From assembly GCA_026390735.1 (NCBI GenBank), contig JAPLFJ010000056.1, positions 1-55,872 of the forward strand: a stretch of 55,872 nt of DNA, given 5' to 3'. Source of the stretch: Ignavibacteriota bacterium (GTDB taxonomy: Bacteria; Bacteroidota; Ignavibacteria; Tepidaquicellales; Tepidaquicellaceae). Under the pieces are notes generated by a model. That model ran no database searches. It was not told where the DNA came from and worked only from the letters and a program-made list of their open reading frames with translations. This document shows, piece after piece, positions 27,656 through 32,622 of the stretch (positions are counted from its first letter, which is position 1; each line of letters starts with the position of its first letter). Made by a program: the position numbers and the translations under genes.

Positions 27656-28687
27656 TCAATCTTGCAAGAAAATAGCGTATTTTTGATAATCAATTATTCC
27701 ATTACTATCTTTGTTTTCTATCCATCCAATCTCTTTGTGAGAATATTTACTGATTTCGCTTGGTTTGTAGTTTTTAAATTTATGGTATATTTTCTCAATA
27801 ATATTAATTTCTTTTTCGTTAAAGAGATTCATATCTGGTTCTCTTATATTTGTAATTTTTTCTGTAACACCACATTCCTCTAAATTTTCTTTGATATCAA
27901 TATACTTTTTCATAAATAGCCAACTGTATATTGCGTCATAATCATTTGGGACAGGTCCGTATTTTATAGCAACATACCTGCATCCGGTAATTGATTGTAT
28001 GTAATTTTTGTAAAATTCAAAATCCACGTAGAATAGTAATTTGTTTAGTTTGGTTTTGTATGGTTTTTCTTTTGAGGCAAAAAATAGAATAATGTTTATG
28101 AATTTCTCGAAGTTTGGTTTTACATACCCGGTATCACTCCCAACTCTTTTTGGCCATAGTTCTTCAATCCATTTGGACAAAGTATTGTTGTTATGTTGCT
28201 TATCGGCTACTTTTTCTATTTCTTTTAATTCTGATTTGCTAAATAAATCCTCTCTATATTCTATAAGTTTTAGGAATTGTATTGGGTCTTCTATTAATCT
28301 TAATATTGAATTGTGAGACTCATTTGGAATAGCTCCCTTTTCGTAATTTGAATAAGTATTCTCTCCCCATCCCAAAGCTAATGACATTTTGTTTTTAGTT
28401 AGACCGTATTTATTTCGAAGCGAAGTAATTTCACTTGGAAAAAGAATTTTATACTTCTCCCTATATTGATTATATACTTGATGTATGTTCTTATCACCAA
28501 GTGTATTGTCTATTAATTCTTCACCACAGCTATCACATTTATAATAACTTTCAAAAACCTTAAAGTTTTCTTTTCTAAATGTTATATCTTTAGGTTTTCC
28601 GGTAATTAAACTTAATGGACCATTGCATAATGGACATAAATTTGGAATTTTCATTTTAGTTATATTTTTGTTATTCTGCGTTTTCAT
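27656..28687 (-). CDS. Zinc-finger/HTH/Panacea (DUF4065, SocA-like) antitoxin
   Basis: 343 residues in three parts. Residues 15-60 are an MqsA-type zinc finger (CPLC at 18-21, CDSC at 51-54). Residues about 85-135 are an Xre-type HTH (KNKMSLALGWGENTYSNYEK). Residues about 190-300 are a Panacea/DUF4065 domain (TKLNKLLFYVDFEFYKNY; YVAIKYGPVPNDYDAIY). Panacea domains act as interchangeable toxin neutralisers; the zinc finger plus HTH would bind the promoter. It overlaps the upstream toxin gene by 4 bp (ATGA), so the two are translationally coupled in toxin-first order, as in mqsRA. Inner starts (Met12) are possible. Confidence 0.85.
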   Translation of the reverse strand: MKTQNNKNITKMKIPNLCPLCNGPLSLITGKPKDITFRKENFKVFESYYKCDSCGEELIDNTLGDKNIHQVYNQYREKYKILFPSEITSLRNKYGLTKNKMSLALGWGENTYSNYEKGAIPNESHNSILRLIEDPIQFLKLIEYREDLFSKSELKEIEKVADKQHNNNTLSKWIEELWPKRVGSDTGYVKPNFEKFINIILFFASKEKPYKTKLNKLLFYVDFEFYKNYIQSITGCRYVAIKYGPVPNDYDAIYSWLFMKKYIDIKENLEECGVTEKITNIREPDMNLFNEKEINIIEKIYHKFKNYKPSEISKYSHKEIGWIENKDSNGIIDYQKYAIFLQD

Positions 28688-29031
28688 TTTTTAAATGGAT
28701 AAACCATACTCTTTTTTGCCCTATGAAAAGAAATACATACGGGTCTCTGATTATCTTTCCTATCACTAAGTTTTATGTAAATTTCGTACGATTGATTCTC
28801 TATTGACACCCCAAATACCCAAACGTTAAATTGTTTGAAATCTATATCCTCTTCTGGGCCTGATACATAATCAGTTTTTTTTAAACTTTGGACAATTTCT
28901 TTTGCGATATCAACTGTTAACCCTAATTCAAGAATGCCGTCTTGTGAACGTTTTAGGAAATATAAATTATGGTCTGAAATACATTTAGTGTATTCCTTAA
29001 TGAACTTTTCAATCTCCTTTTCTTTGGTCAT
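28684..29031 (-). CDS. MqsR-like toxin (probable mRNA interferase)
   Basis: 115 residues. From about residue 33, ELGLTVDIAKEIVQSLKKTD, then FNVWVFGVSIENQSYEIYIK and ending in RPVCISFHRAKKSMVYPFKK, parallels E. coli MqsR (ELGLDFDGMCNVIIGLSESD, then VYLKITV and VSFKEK). MqsR cleaves mRNA at GCU. The family call is from remembered motif similarity and is moderate; the antitoxin neighbour with its MqsA-type zinc finger supports it. The gene has its own sigma70-like promoter 20 bp upstream. Confidence 0.65.
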   Translation of the reverse strand: MTKEKEIEKFIKEYTKCISDHNLYFLKRSQDGILELGLTVDIAKEIVQSLKKTDYVSGPEEDIDFKQFNVWVFGVSIENQSYEIYIKLSDRKDNQRPVCISFHRAKKSMVYPFKK

Positions 29032-30250: not shown

Positions 30251-30650
30251 TATTCCTCAATATTAACGTTATTTAATTTCTCGTTTTTGCGAAAGTTGCT
30301 TTCCATCTAATTGTTTTGGATTTCTCCTCACTATTAACACTATTTAATTATCCGTTTTTGCGAAAGCTGTTTTCCAAGTAATCGTTCTGAATTATCTCTC
30401 ACTATTAACACTATTTAATTATCCGTTTTTGCGAAAGCCGCTTTTCGTCTAATAGTTTTGGTTTTCCTCTCATTATTAACACTATTTCATTTTCTGTTTT
30501 TGCGAAAGCTGAATTCCAACTAATCTTTTCTATTTCATCTCACTATATTCACTATTTTATTCTTTGATTTTGCGATTCAGTTGTTTATCCAAAATATTGA
30601 TTCCTTTTCCCGCCAAAAACACTATTCTATTCTCCGTTATTGCGAAAGAA
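30251..30650. repeat. 71-bp tandem repeat array, about six units
   Basis: The core TTTTTGCGAAAG starts at 30284, 30355, 30426 and 30497, with weaker copies near 30567 and 30637, giving periods of 71, 71, 71, 70 and 70. Each core is preceded by TATTAACACTATTTAATTAT-like sequence and followed by TTCCANCTAAT...TTT...TCTCAC. Both halves are conserved, so this is one long unit rather than repeats with unique spacers. No reading frame crosses it. It takes up most of the left part of the 965-bp gap 30132-31096; the right part holds the structured RNA. Confidence 0.85.
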
Positions 30651-30880
30651 TATCTTCCTTTAAAAATATATTGTATTTTGAATACTTTTGTTCTAACTTA
30701 CTATAAGTTGTATATCTAAATAAAACAAATTAGGGTTGGGGGTTAAAATATTGATTCAAGGAATTGCTATTTTAATCTTTAACCTTTTTGTGTTTTAAAG
30801 AGATACTATTGGTATTATATTTGATTAATAATGAATAACGTTTGTCTCGATTTGTAATCGTTCTTTATAAATAAGATTTT

Positions 30881-31042
30881 CACGTAGCTTTTTGCTATGT
30901 TCTGTACTGAAAACTGGTAATTTTTAAAACAGAGAACAAGCAAGAATGTTGCGTCCTGATATAGGGCGCGCTTTCTTATGTCTTCTGTTTGGGTATACCA
31001 GTACCTCAGTGCAGGGCGTAATGTTAGTTGCGTCCTTTTTTT
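30881..31042 (+). ncRNA. Candidate structured RNA with switchable stems
   Basis: Nested pairings on the plus strand: ACGTAGC/GCTATGT (30882-30900); ACTGGTA (30913-30919) with TACCAGT (30996-31002); AAACAGA (30927-30933) with TCTGTTT (30984-30990); AAGAA (30942-30946) with TTCTT (30973-30977); GCGTCCT (30951-30957) with AGGGCGC (30963-30969). Then AGGGCG (31013-31018) pairs with CGTCCT (31031-31036) and a T-run. GTTGCGTCCT occurs twice (30948-30957, 31027-31036) and AGGGCG twice, so the stems can swap partners. No ORF fits. A TATATTTG at 30816-30823 may be the promoter. It could be an sRNA or the leader of the gene at 31097. Confidence 0.65.
31013..31042 (+). terminator. Intrinsic terminator ending the structured RNA
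   Basis: AGGGCG/CGTCCT (6 bp, one G-U) with a 12-nt loop, followed by seven Ts (31036-31042). It stands 54 bp before the ATG of the first membrane paralogue, so it would end a short RNA or, if the alternative pairing forms, allow read-through. Confidence 0.7.
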
Positions 31043-31096
31043 ATTTCCTCAATTAATTTAGAATAAATACTTTTTAATAAATTAATTTATAATAAA

Positions 31097-31993
31097 ATGA
31101 GTAAACCGGCAAAAGATGTTAAATTCATCATTTATCAGGTTCTGTACATATTTGTCATAGTTGTTCTTACTATGAAAGGTGCAGATTTAGATCTTACAAA
31201 AGTTTTAGCTTCAGATAAAGCTGTTCCTAAAACATATTCCGATAGTTTAAAAGCTTATATAGATTCTCTTGAATCGATGGGTTTGGTTCCCAGAGTTGAA
31301 TTTGATGCTATTAGAAATCTCGATTATAAGATGCAGCCTATTGTAGATATTAGAGGTATGGTGAGATTAACAGATGGACAGGTGATAATGAATAAAAGTG
31401 ATATACAGAAAACAGAAAGTAATGAACCCATTCCAGTACCAAAAGAAGAAAGACAGTTTGAGTTAAAGATAGTTCAGCCAACACAGTTCACTAACAATAC
31501 TATAAAGAACAATAATAGTGAACCATTGCAAATATATGCGGATAATAACTTAATCCAAACAATACCTGCAAATAGTCCAGGTGCATATCAATTAAAAGGA
31601 CAATCAACAGTAAAATATGTTTGTGGTAACAGTAGTAAAAGTGTTGAAACGCTACAGAACCAAACACAAAAGCTTAATTTCCAATCATTCGGTGCTGGTA
31701 ATTCAGAGGCAAGTCTTAGAAGTCTGCAATCAGTGATTGGATGGAGAGTAACTATAGATGATGATTTTATTGACCAAATTGATGTAAAGATATCAGGTTC
31801 GGTAAAATCCAAACAAGTTGCTAAGGGGATTTATGATATACAATTAGCTTTATGCAACAGCAAAGACCAATTTGACAGGATGTTTGACAATAAAGAAGCG
31901 CCATATAGTGTATCGTTCAATGTTGTAACTACAGATAAAATCTCGGGGAAAGTAGTAAGCCAGCAGAGAACATTCACTTTTGGTGGTTGGTAA
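31097..31993 (+). CDS. Membrane-anchored paralogue A, unknown function
   Basis: 298 residues. One transmembrane helix near the N-terminus (about 10-28), then a DSLKAYIDSLESMG helix, a linker with a beta-rich middle (residues 120-195, absent from paralogue B), and a C-terminal domain of about 95 residues: SLRSLQSVIGWRVTIDDDFI, VKISGSVKSKQV, YDIQLALCNSKDQFDRMF, PYSVSFNVVTTDKISGKVV, ending RTFTFGGW. The same domain ends the next gene. Topology suggests an inner-membrane anchor with a periplasmic domain. No family recognised. First gene downstream of the structured RNA. Confidence 0.75.
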   Translation: MSKPAKDVKFIIYQVLYIFVIVVLTMKGADLDLTKVLASDKAVPKTYSDSLKAYIDSLESMGLVPRVEFDAIRNLDYKMQPIVDIRGMVRLTDGQVIMNKSDIQKTESNEPIPVPKEERQFELKIVQPTQFTNNTIKNNNSEPLQIYADNNLIQTIPANSPGAYQLKGQSTVKYVCGNSSKSVETLQNQTQKLNFQSFGAGNSEASLRSLQSVIGWRVTIDDDFIDQIDVKISGSVKSKQVAKGIYDIQLALCNSKDQFDRMFDNKEAPYSVSFNVVTTDKISGKVVSQQRTFTFGGW

Positions 31994-31995
31994 GA

Positions 31996-32622
31996 ATGAA
32001 AAAAACATTAAACTATCATGTTCTATATAAAAGCATAATATCTTTACTGTTTATATTAATTGCAGTTTTAATTTTCATTTTAGAGCAAAAGAAAATTGTT
32101 GATGAAACTACTATTGGAAAAAAGATATATGCAGATAGTTTAAAATCATTAATTGATAGTCTTATAGAAAGGGAACATTTTCCTTTTGTTGGATATACAG
32201 AACCTATGACAGACGCAAGCACAACTACAATTTGCTTTCGTGGAAAAGTATATACATTAACAGAATCTTTTTTTGATCGTTTTGAATATAAAATCCAAAT
32301 GCTTAATTATGAAACTTTCACCTTAGGAGGTCCGGATATAAGTCTTAGAAGTTTGCAATCATTAGATGGATGGAGAGTATCTATAAGAGAGGATTACATA
32401 AAGCAAAAAGATGTACGAATATCTGGCCCGGTAAAAACAAAGCAAGTTTCAATGGGGGTTTACGAAATACAATTAGCATTATGCAGTAGTAAAGTTGAAT
32501 TTGAAAAAATGTTTAAGAATAAAAAGTCGCCATATACTGTGTCGTTCAATATAGTATTTACAGATACTATTACAGGCGAAGTGGATAACCAACAAAGGGC
32601 ATTTACTTTTGGAAGTTGGTAG
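31996..32622 (+). CDS. Membrane-anchored paralogue B, unknown function
   Basis: About 208 residues. The ATG at 31996, 2 bp after the stop of paralogue A, is preferred over an in-frame TTG at 31987. One N-terminal transmembrane helix (SIISLLFILIAVLIFIL), then DSLKSLIDSLIERE as in paralogue A, then directly the shared C-terminal domain (SLRSLQSLDGWRVSIREDYI; VRISGPVKTKQV; YEIQLALCSSKVEFEKMF; PYTVSFNIVFTDTITGEV; RAFTFGSW). A and B clearly arose by duplication and differ mainly by the central insert. Coupled translation suggests that they act together. Confidence 0.75.
   Translation: MKKTLNYHVLYKSIISLLFILIAVLIFILEQKKIVDETTIGKKIYADSLKSLIDSLIEREHFPFVGYTEPMTDASTTTICFRGKVYTLTESFFDRFEYKIQMLNYETFTLGGPDISLRSLQSLDGWRVSIREDYIKQKDVRISGPVKTKQVSMGVYEIQLALCSSKVEFEKMFKNKKSPYTVSFNIVFTDTITGEVDNQQRAFTFGSW

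Follow-up and report, generated by a model that had tools for sequence, protein, structure and literature searches.

A portable structured RNA with competing helices before a U-run, a candidate conditional leader found across the Bacteroidota

What is the strongly structured RNA that lies at 30881–31042 of the window (the whole 55,872-nucleotide stretch of an Ignavibacteriota contig that was analysed), and what, if anything, does it do to the genes behind it? The original prediction, made from the letters of this DNA, read here a terminator and two mutually exclusive sets of stems, and offered a new sRNA, a 6S-type RNA or a regulatory leader as possible identities. The RNA is a real structured feature: its recurrence, with compensatory changes, in many genomes puts it far beyond chance. 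It is probably a cis-acting 5′ leader and the representative of a new family spread throughout the Bacteroidota, in which the choice of partner by one strand (d) would decide between termination and read-through in response to a signal shared by the phylum. Its parts, all on the + strand, are as follows.

~30882–31042, + strand: the structured RNA as a whole, recognised by its fold, repeats and stems
30882–30900, + strand: P1, the 5′ hairpin, with strands a (30882–30888) and b (30894–30900)
30903–30910, + strand: 5′ strand of P2, whose partner is 31006–31013
30913–30919, + strand: 5′ strand of P3, ACUGGUA, whose partner is the loop of hairpin B (30996–31002)
30928–30989, + strand: P4–P6 arm, with tip strands e (30948–30956) and f (30964–30969), represented by helices 4–7 of the 27-member alignment
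30992–31005, + strand: hairpin B, GGU-AUACCAGU-ACC
31006–31013, + strand: 3′ strand of P2, identified by alignment covariation and the exchange test
31014–31021, + strand: strand c, which pairs with d (terminator hairpin) or with b (rod)
31027–31035, + strand: strand d, the last before the U-run, which may pair with c, f or a
31036–31042, + strand: U-run, a terminator-like 3′ end of seven T

The repeats, stems and T-run that had been read from the letters were each found in their places: GTTGCGTCC(T) is present at 30948 and again at 31027, and AGGGCG at 30963 and 31013. Folding of the + strand of 30870–31050 yields −67.5 kcal/mol, versus −37.9 ± 3.9 kcal/mol in dinucleotide shuffles (z −7.5), and none of 200 shuffles folded equally well; the opposite strand folds less well (z −4.35). 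When the window's copy was folded under constraint from its inferred start, with programs that cannot score a pseudoknot, the 5′ P1 hairpin together with the terminator hairpin reached −71.8 kcal/mol and the long rod, with the pairings a:d and b:c, reached −71.2 kcal/mol. Because these two folds lie within 0.6 kcal/mol and are practically equal in energy, the original picture of mutually exclusive stems is right.

Homologues with compensatory changes, whose absence the prediction had listed among the outcomes that would count against it, were found. In a 27-member alignment, fitted to a model whose structure derives from the window's own copy, 53 of 58 pairs show compensatory double changes, with 90.8% of cells paired and a covariation score of 0.575, versus 0.207 in shuffles and about 0.1 with slid partners. 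Double changes are seen at all eight pairs of P2 (98.6% of cells paired), at five of the seven pairs of P3 (98.9% paired), at three of three in the stem of hairpin B (98.8% paired) and, within the window's class, at all seven pairs of P1. Since the alignment model was built on the window's structure, an alignment-free test was added, in which pairing with the member's own partner was compared with pairing with exchanged partners in 87 mutually divergent members. The resulting z values, which are not probabilities because the members fall into sequence classes, were 23.6 for P4, 12.2 for e:f, 11.6 for f:d and 6.2 for c:d, none of which had been selected for; those of P2 (41.7), P3 (15.2) and the B stem (12.5) are inflated, as members were picked by a pattern demanding P3 complementarity, the B stem and some P2 pairing. 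Controls ranged from −2.3 to +2.1. P1 received no support in the phylum-wide local-fold test, despite passing the alignment test in the window's class.

The pairing of 30913–30919 with the loop of hairpin B was missed by the original prediction and is part of the universal core. Covariation of both P3 and the B stem is seen in the model-based alignment, whose members were chosen without regard to either, and both occur in several versions: ACUGGUA/UACCAGU, UCUGGUA/UACCAGA, UGUGGCA/UGCCACA and ACUGGGG/CCCCAGU for P3, and GGU/ACC, GGC/GCC, GCC/GGC and CCU/AGG for the B stem. Either the B loop would form a pseudoknot with the upstream strand or P3 and the B stem would alternate. Some further candidates were set aside. 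An extra helix between the segment preceding P2 and the arm (UGUUCU/AGAACA, UCUCG/CGAGA) is convincing by eye but lies within the range of shuffles and is not claimed; the small GAAAA/UUUUC hairpin considered around P3's 5′ strand was dropped because divergent members, inspected by eye, break it; and a tRNA-binding, T-box-like role for the UGG of the UGGU/ACCA strands was dropped because both strands covary to other sequences.

The alternative pairings foreseen by the original prediction are present, but the c:d terminator that it described belongs mainly to the window's class, where it covaries, and reaches at least 6 bp in just 39% of the family, whereas f:d is phylum-wide. Of the 87 divergent members, 99% allow f and d to form at least 6 bp and 90% allow 7 bp, versus 34% and 13% for shuffled d against f, and this complementarity is realised by 67 different helices. 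As f also pairs with e, and e:f, f:d and c:d each covary, the RNA possesses the mutually exclusive conserved helices, one of them abutting a U-run, that mark an attenuating leader. The T-run itself follows d in 152 of 166 members, which bears out the terminator-like end. Two observations, the first made by eye, touch on pairing with the message. In several loci with a RibD_C gene (L099, L154, L179 and L241 among them), a segment such as AGCGAAUGUU, 8–20 nt past the U-run, shows complementarity to AACGUUCGCU of the 5′ hairpin, possibly a further pairing between leader and message. At five others (L101, L117, L122, L162 and L174), the downstream gene opens with ATGGAAACTGGTAC, a repeat of the P3 5′ strand GAAAACTGGTA, which could compete for hairpin B or may be there by chance.

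Where the original prediction dealt with a single locus, the RNA turned out to be a multicopy, phylum-wide family. The source genome (4.0 Mb in 69 contigs) holds six copies by blastn and eight by covariance model (on contigs C21, C29, which has two, C35, C42, C67, C30 and C25), and its relatives carry further copies. By a second covariance model, 50 of 294 genomes of the same class are carriers, about one in six, as are 47 of 395 genomes, about one in eight, in a phylum-wide sample. In a named collection, a strict pattern for the core sequence found at least 119 matching stretches; among the matches listed are Chryseobacterium, Flavobacterium, Maribacter, Elizabethkingia, Mucilaginibacter, Bacteroides, Parabacteroides, Phocaeicola, Dysgonomonas, Ignavibacteria and others, and the few labelled as other phyla are draft metagenome bins and possibly misbinned. 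The window's class is probably Ignavibacteria-like, because two named Ignavibacteria (L120, L124) rank among the best-scoring named loci.

None of the 4227 families of Rfam 15 matched over the RNA, either in the window or in 20 loci taken across the family, and permissive scans of three members returned noise alone; Flavo-1, 6S-flavo, Bacteroidales-1 and other families stayed below their curated thresholds. Of the identities first offered, the regulatory leader is favoured and the 6S-type RNA is rejected: no 6S covariance model matched, and the RNA is phylum-wide, has up to eight copies per genome and sits before unrelated genes. In phage and plasmid collections the window's RNA found no match; Bacteroidales relatives are present on plasmid records. 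In one Bacteroidales element, the rteR sRNA (RF04181; L099, 2244–2324, − strand) adjoins the RNA and a RibD_C gene. The element is undescribed in the literature searched, with most subscription journals and preprints outside that search; structured 5′ elements without an Rfam match are among those listed for Flavobacterium psychrophilum (PMC9723704).

How the RNA is placed relative to promoters and genes bears on whether it is a leader. The features concerned, again with their strand, are these.

30723–30881, + strand: upstream part of the cassette, comprising promoter region and transcript 5′ end, common to four other copies in the same genome
30816–30823, + strand: likely promoter −7 box, TATATTTG (phylum consensus TAnnTTTG), from motif enrichment in the family
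31097–31993, + strand: first downstream gene, 298 aa, with one N-terminal membrane segment and without known family
31987–32622, + strand: second downstream gene, 211 aa, sharing its C-terminal domain with the first by pairwise comparison

Judged by this sequence motif only, the promoter precedes the RNA: TAnnTTTG is found upstream in 48 of 84 members, versus 10.7 in shuffles (largest of 200: 21), mostly 50–110 nt before the core, and between the U-run and the gene in 5 of 84, versus 9.3 in shuffles, which is no enrichment. A lone occurrence is not significant by itself. In the window, transcription would start at about 30830. Of 149 genes that come next downstream, 137 (92%) are co-directional with the RNA, at a median of 103 nt from the U-run and at less than 47 nt in a quarter of the same-strand cases. 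Since boxes lie upstream and none are enriched after the U-run, the gene is most simply transcribed through the RNA, and a 5′ leader controlling read-through is most likely. A 3′ UTR or terminator of the upstream gene was rejected, as the closest gene upstream has the opposite orientation in 96 of 149 cases, and a leader peptide was rejected because the short ATG frame at 30831 is, by eye, absent from the other copies in the genome.

The same data bear on the idea that the RNA is a free-standing, trans-acting sRNA, about 165–215 nt long, that is transcribed from its own promoter and ends at a constitutive terminator, the gene being a mere frequent neighbour or a target. We regard this as unlikely, if less so for the SusC group. 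It would account for the likely promoter and the U-run, for the several copies per genome, as in paralogous sRNA families such as FopS (PMC11697453), and for the longer gaps ahead of SusC genes, which in that group lie 230–500 nt further downstream and leave space for a separate start. However, no promoter is enriched between RNA and gene, the gaps are often too short for one, downstream genes share the strand of the RNA in the proportion given above, and a plain terminator has no need of conserved competition between e and d for f. In several Flavobacteriia loci (L104, L108, L110, L126, L143), the stretch between U-run and SusC gene contains a second conserved hairpin (ATGGCCCTCTA ... TAGAGGACC) close to the start codon.

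The genes behind the RNA are diverse. In the window, the first ATG after the U-run is at 31097, 54 nt away, so that the predicted spacing to two paralogous genes was right: the two products have in common a C-terminal domain with 58% identity over 113 aa, and neither matched Pfam or NCBIfam above threshold. Both belong to a family within the same genome with at least five loci (on contigs C21, C14, C58, C18 and C35), likewise without a Pfam or NCBIfam match. The 102 downstream proteins scanned across the family fall into 69 Pfam families with no common pathway; they include 23 SusC-like TonB receptors, 14 RibD_C/DHFR-like proteins, 5 with sigma-70 regions and 4 with a T9SS tail, while many have no known family and some are secreted. 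By a crude measure, a hydrophobic N-terminal segment is present in 57% of downstream genes versus 27% of other frames at the same loci. Upstream genes encode Cro/C1-type HTH proteins in 32 of 92 cases and are frequently divergent, and in Bacteroidales the RNA is carried by conjugative-type elements, flanked by a primase or HTH gene on one side and a gene of the dihydrofolate-reductase family on the other. The window also encodes an MqsR/MqsA-type toxin-antitoxin pair whose antitoxin is fused to a SocA/Panacea domain (27656–29031, − strand), and at related loci toxin-antitoxin pairs (RelE, MazF, HEPN/MNT) often end 40–110 nt before the RNA.

This diversity weighs on a narrower form of the leader switch, a metabolite-binding riboswitch in which a small molecule bound to the P2/P3/B core would set termination. 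The compact core, with GAAAACUGG and the loop sequences near-invariant across the phylum, and the terminator-like platform would suit such a switch. The lack of a common downstream pathway does not, nor does the high variability of the arm outside the core; binding of a protein or of polymerase would explain this as well, and we consider the riboswitch improbable. Still less probable is a put-, EAR- or LoaP-like element of processive antitermination, which would be loaded onto polymerase and meet its first target in the U-run. RfaH and LoaP targets are accessory operons with leader elements, which the position of this RNA resembles, but genes with a NusG domain do not vary in number with the presence of the RNA: carriers and non-carriers alike have one or two, and four carriers (G017, G277, G229, G366) have only one.

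The RNA is a separable module: it precedes a variety of genes, and three paralogues of its own downstream gene lack it. Five copies in the source genome share promoter region and RNA and have different genes behind; homology starts at −191 from CTGGTA (30914) in the window and extends to −282 or more in the other four, and the resulting unit of 320–420 bp is repeated before different genes with abrupt ends. Paralogues of the 298-aa gene occur at other places in the genome (87, 50, 48 and 38% identical), and in the three that were fetched (87–48%) homology begins only at about 31067–31073, with no RNA in front, so the tie to the two membrane genes did not hold. That this unit is a non-autonomous mobile hairpin (MITE- or REP-like), conserved as a DNA palindrome rather than as RNA, is the least credible of the readings considered, since its repetition with abrupt ends is outweighed by the strand bias to the downstream gene, the G-U pairs common on the RNA strand, the U-run, the promoter position, and a model score of 162.6 bits in sense versus 27.8 in antisense. 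By eye, the aligned copies of this genome show neither inverted terminal repeats nor target-site duplication. Directly upstream of the module, a 38-nt repeat (TCTCACTATTAACACTATTTAATTATCCGTTTTTGCGA) is present six times at 30255–30645, regularly spaced at 70–71 nt; at this position the other copies in the genome retain further common sequence instead.

For the 5′ leader, the analysis has shown the fold, the alternative helices, their conservation, the orientation, the promoter position and the modularity; conditional termination, the direction of switching and the signal belong to the model that follows. We propose that transcription would begin at the promoter directly upstream and that the RNA would fold into a core of P2, the P4–P6 arm and hairpin B, with the B loop paired with ACUGGUA. 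Strand d, emerging last before the U-run, would then pick its partner. With a free partner, either its neighbour c, as in the window's class, or f in the arm, d would form a helix abutting the U-run and transcription would stop; if instead e occupies f in the folded arm, and the rod ties up c with b and d with a, polymerase would continue into the gene. The availability of f or c to d would depend on how the core folds, and the balance would be shifted by a signal shared by the Bacteroidota, be it a core metabolite, a protein or the transcription machinery; we infer a phylum-wide signal from the occurrence of the cassette in many hosts and before unrelated genes. The leader would thus be a portable promoter-plus-leader cassette before unrelated accessory genes. 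We hold more tentatively, as a possible reading, that it constitutes a class of leaders with a pseudoknotted core, by which SusC-type receptors, conjugative-element genes and secreted proteins are placed under one signal. Against a leader switch it must be said that downstream genes without a common function are unusual for a ligand switch, that c:d is weak outside the window's class and that the f:d terminator would have an unusual loop of about 60 nt.

If the leader reading is true, a common regulatory RNA of a major bacterial phylum has been missed by standard annotation. The RNA precedes nutrient receptors and conjugative-element genes of gut Bacteroides, and its signal may therefore tie a large set of accessory genes to a single cell state. 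With alternative helices that are conserved and covary, the switch lends itself to direct tests in readily cultured laboratory strains of Flavobacterium, Chryseobacterium or Bacteroides.

Among known systems, attenuators and transcriptional riboswitches are the closest in having an upstream promoter, a structured leader and competing helices with a U-run before the gene, but the present RNA differs from them in its unrelated downstream genes, its pseudoknot-like core, the location of f far off at the tip of the arm, and having no known ligand or leader peptide. FopS comprises paralogous sRNAs of 65–70 nt, described for Bacteroidaceae, which act in trans via a 5′ seed (PMC11697453). The two share occurrence in Bacteroidota, several copies per genome and a link to SusC-type genes; however, at about 165 nt, phylum-wide and in front of a gene, our RNA has the wrong length and anatomy (FopS carries its R1 seed at the 5′ end), and it was set apart from FopS by this description (PMC11697453). 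Flavo-1, 6S-flavo, Bacteroidales-1 and Bacteroid-trp are likewise intergenic, structured RNAs of this phylum, but the RNA matches none of these Rfam models. Finally, JUMPstart/ops, EAR and the targets of LoaP and UpxY are also leaders before accessory operons, acting on the elongating polymerase; the family described here differs from them in having neither a link to NusG paralogues nor an Rfam match, JUMPstart and EAR (epsC) included.
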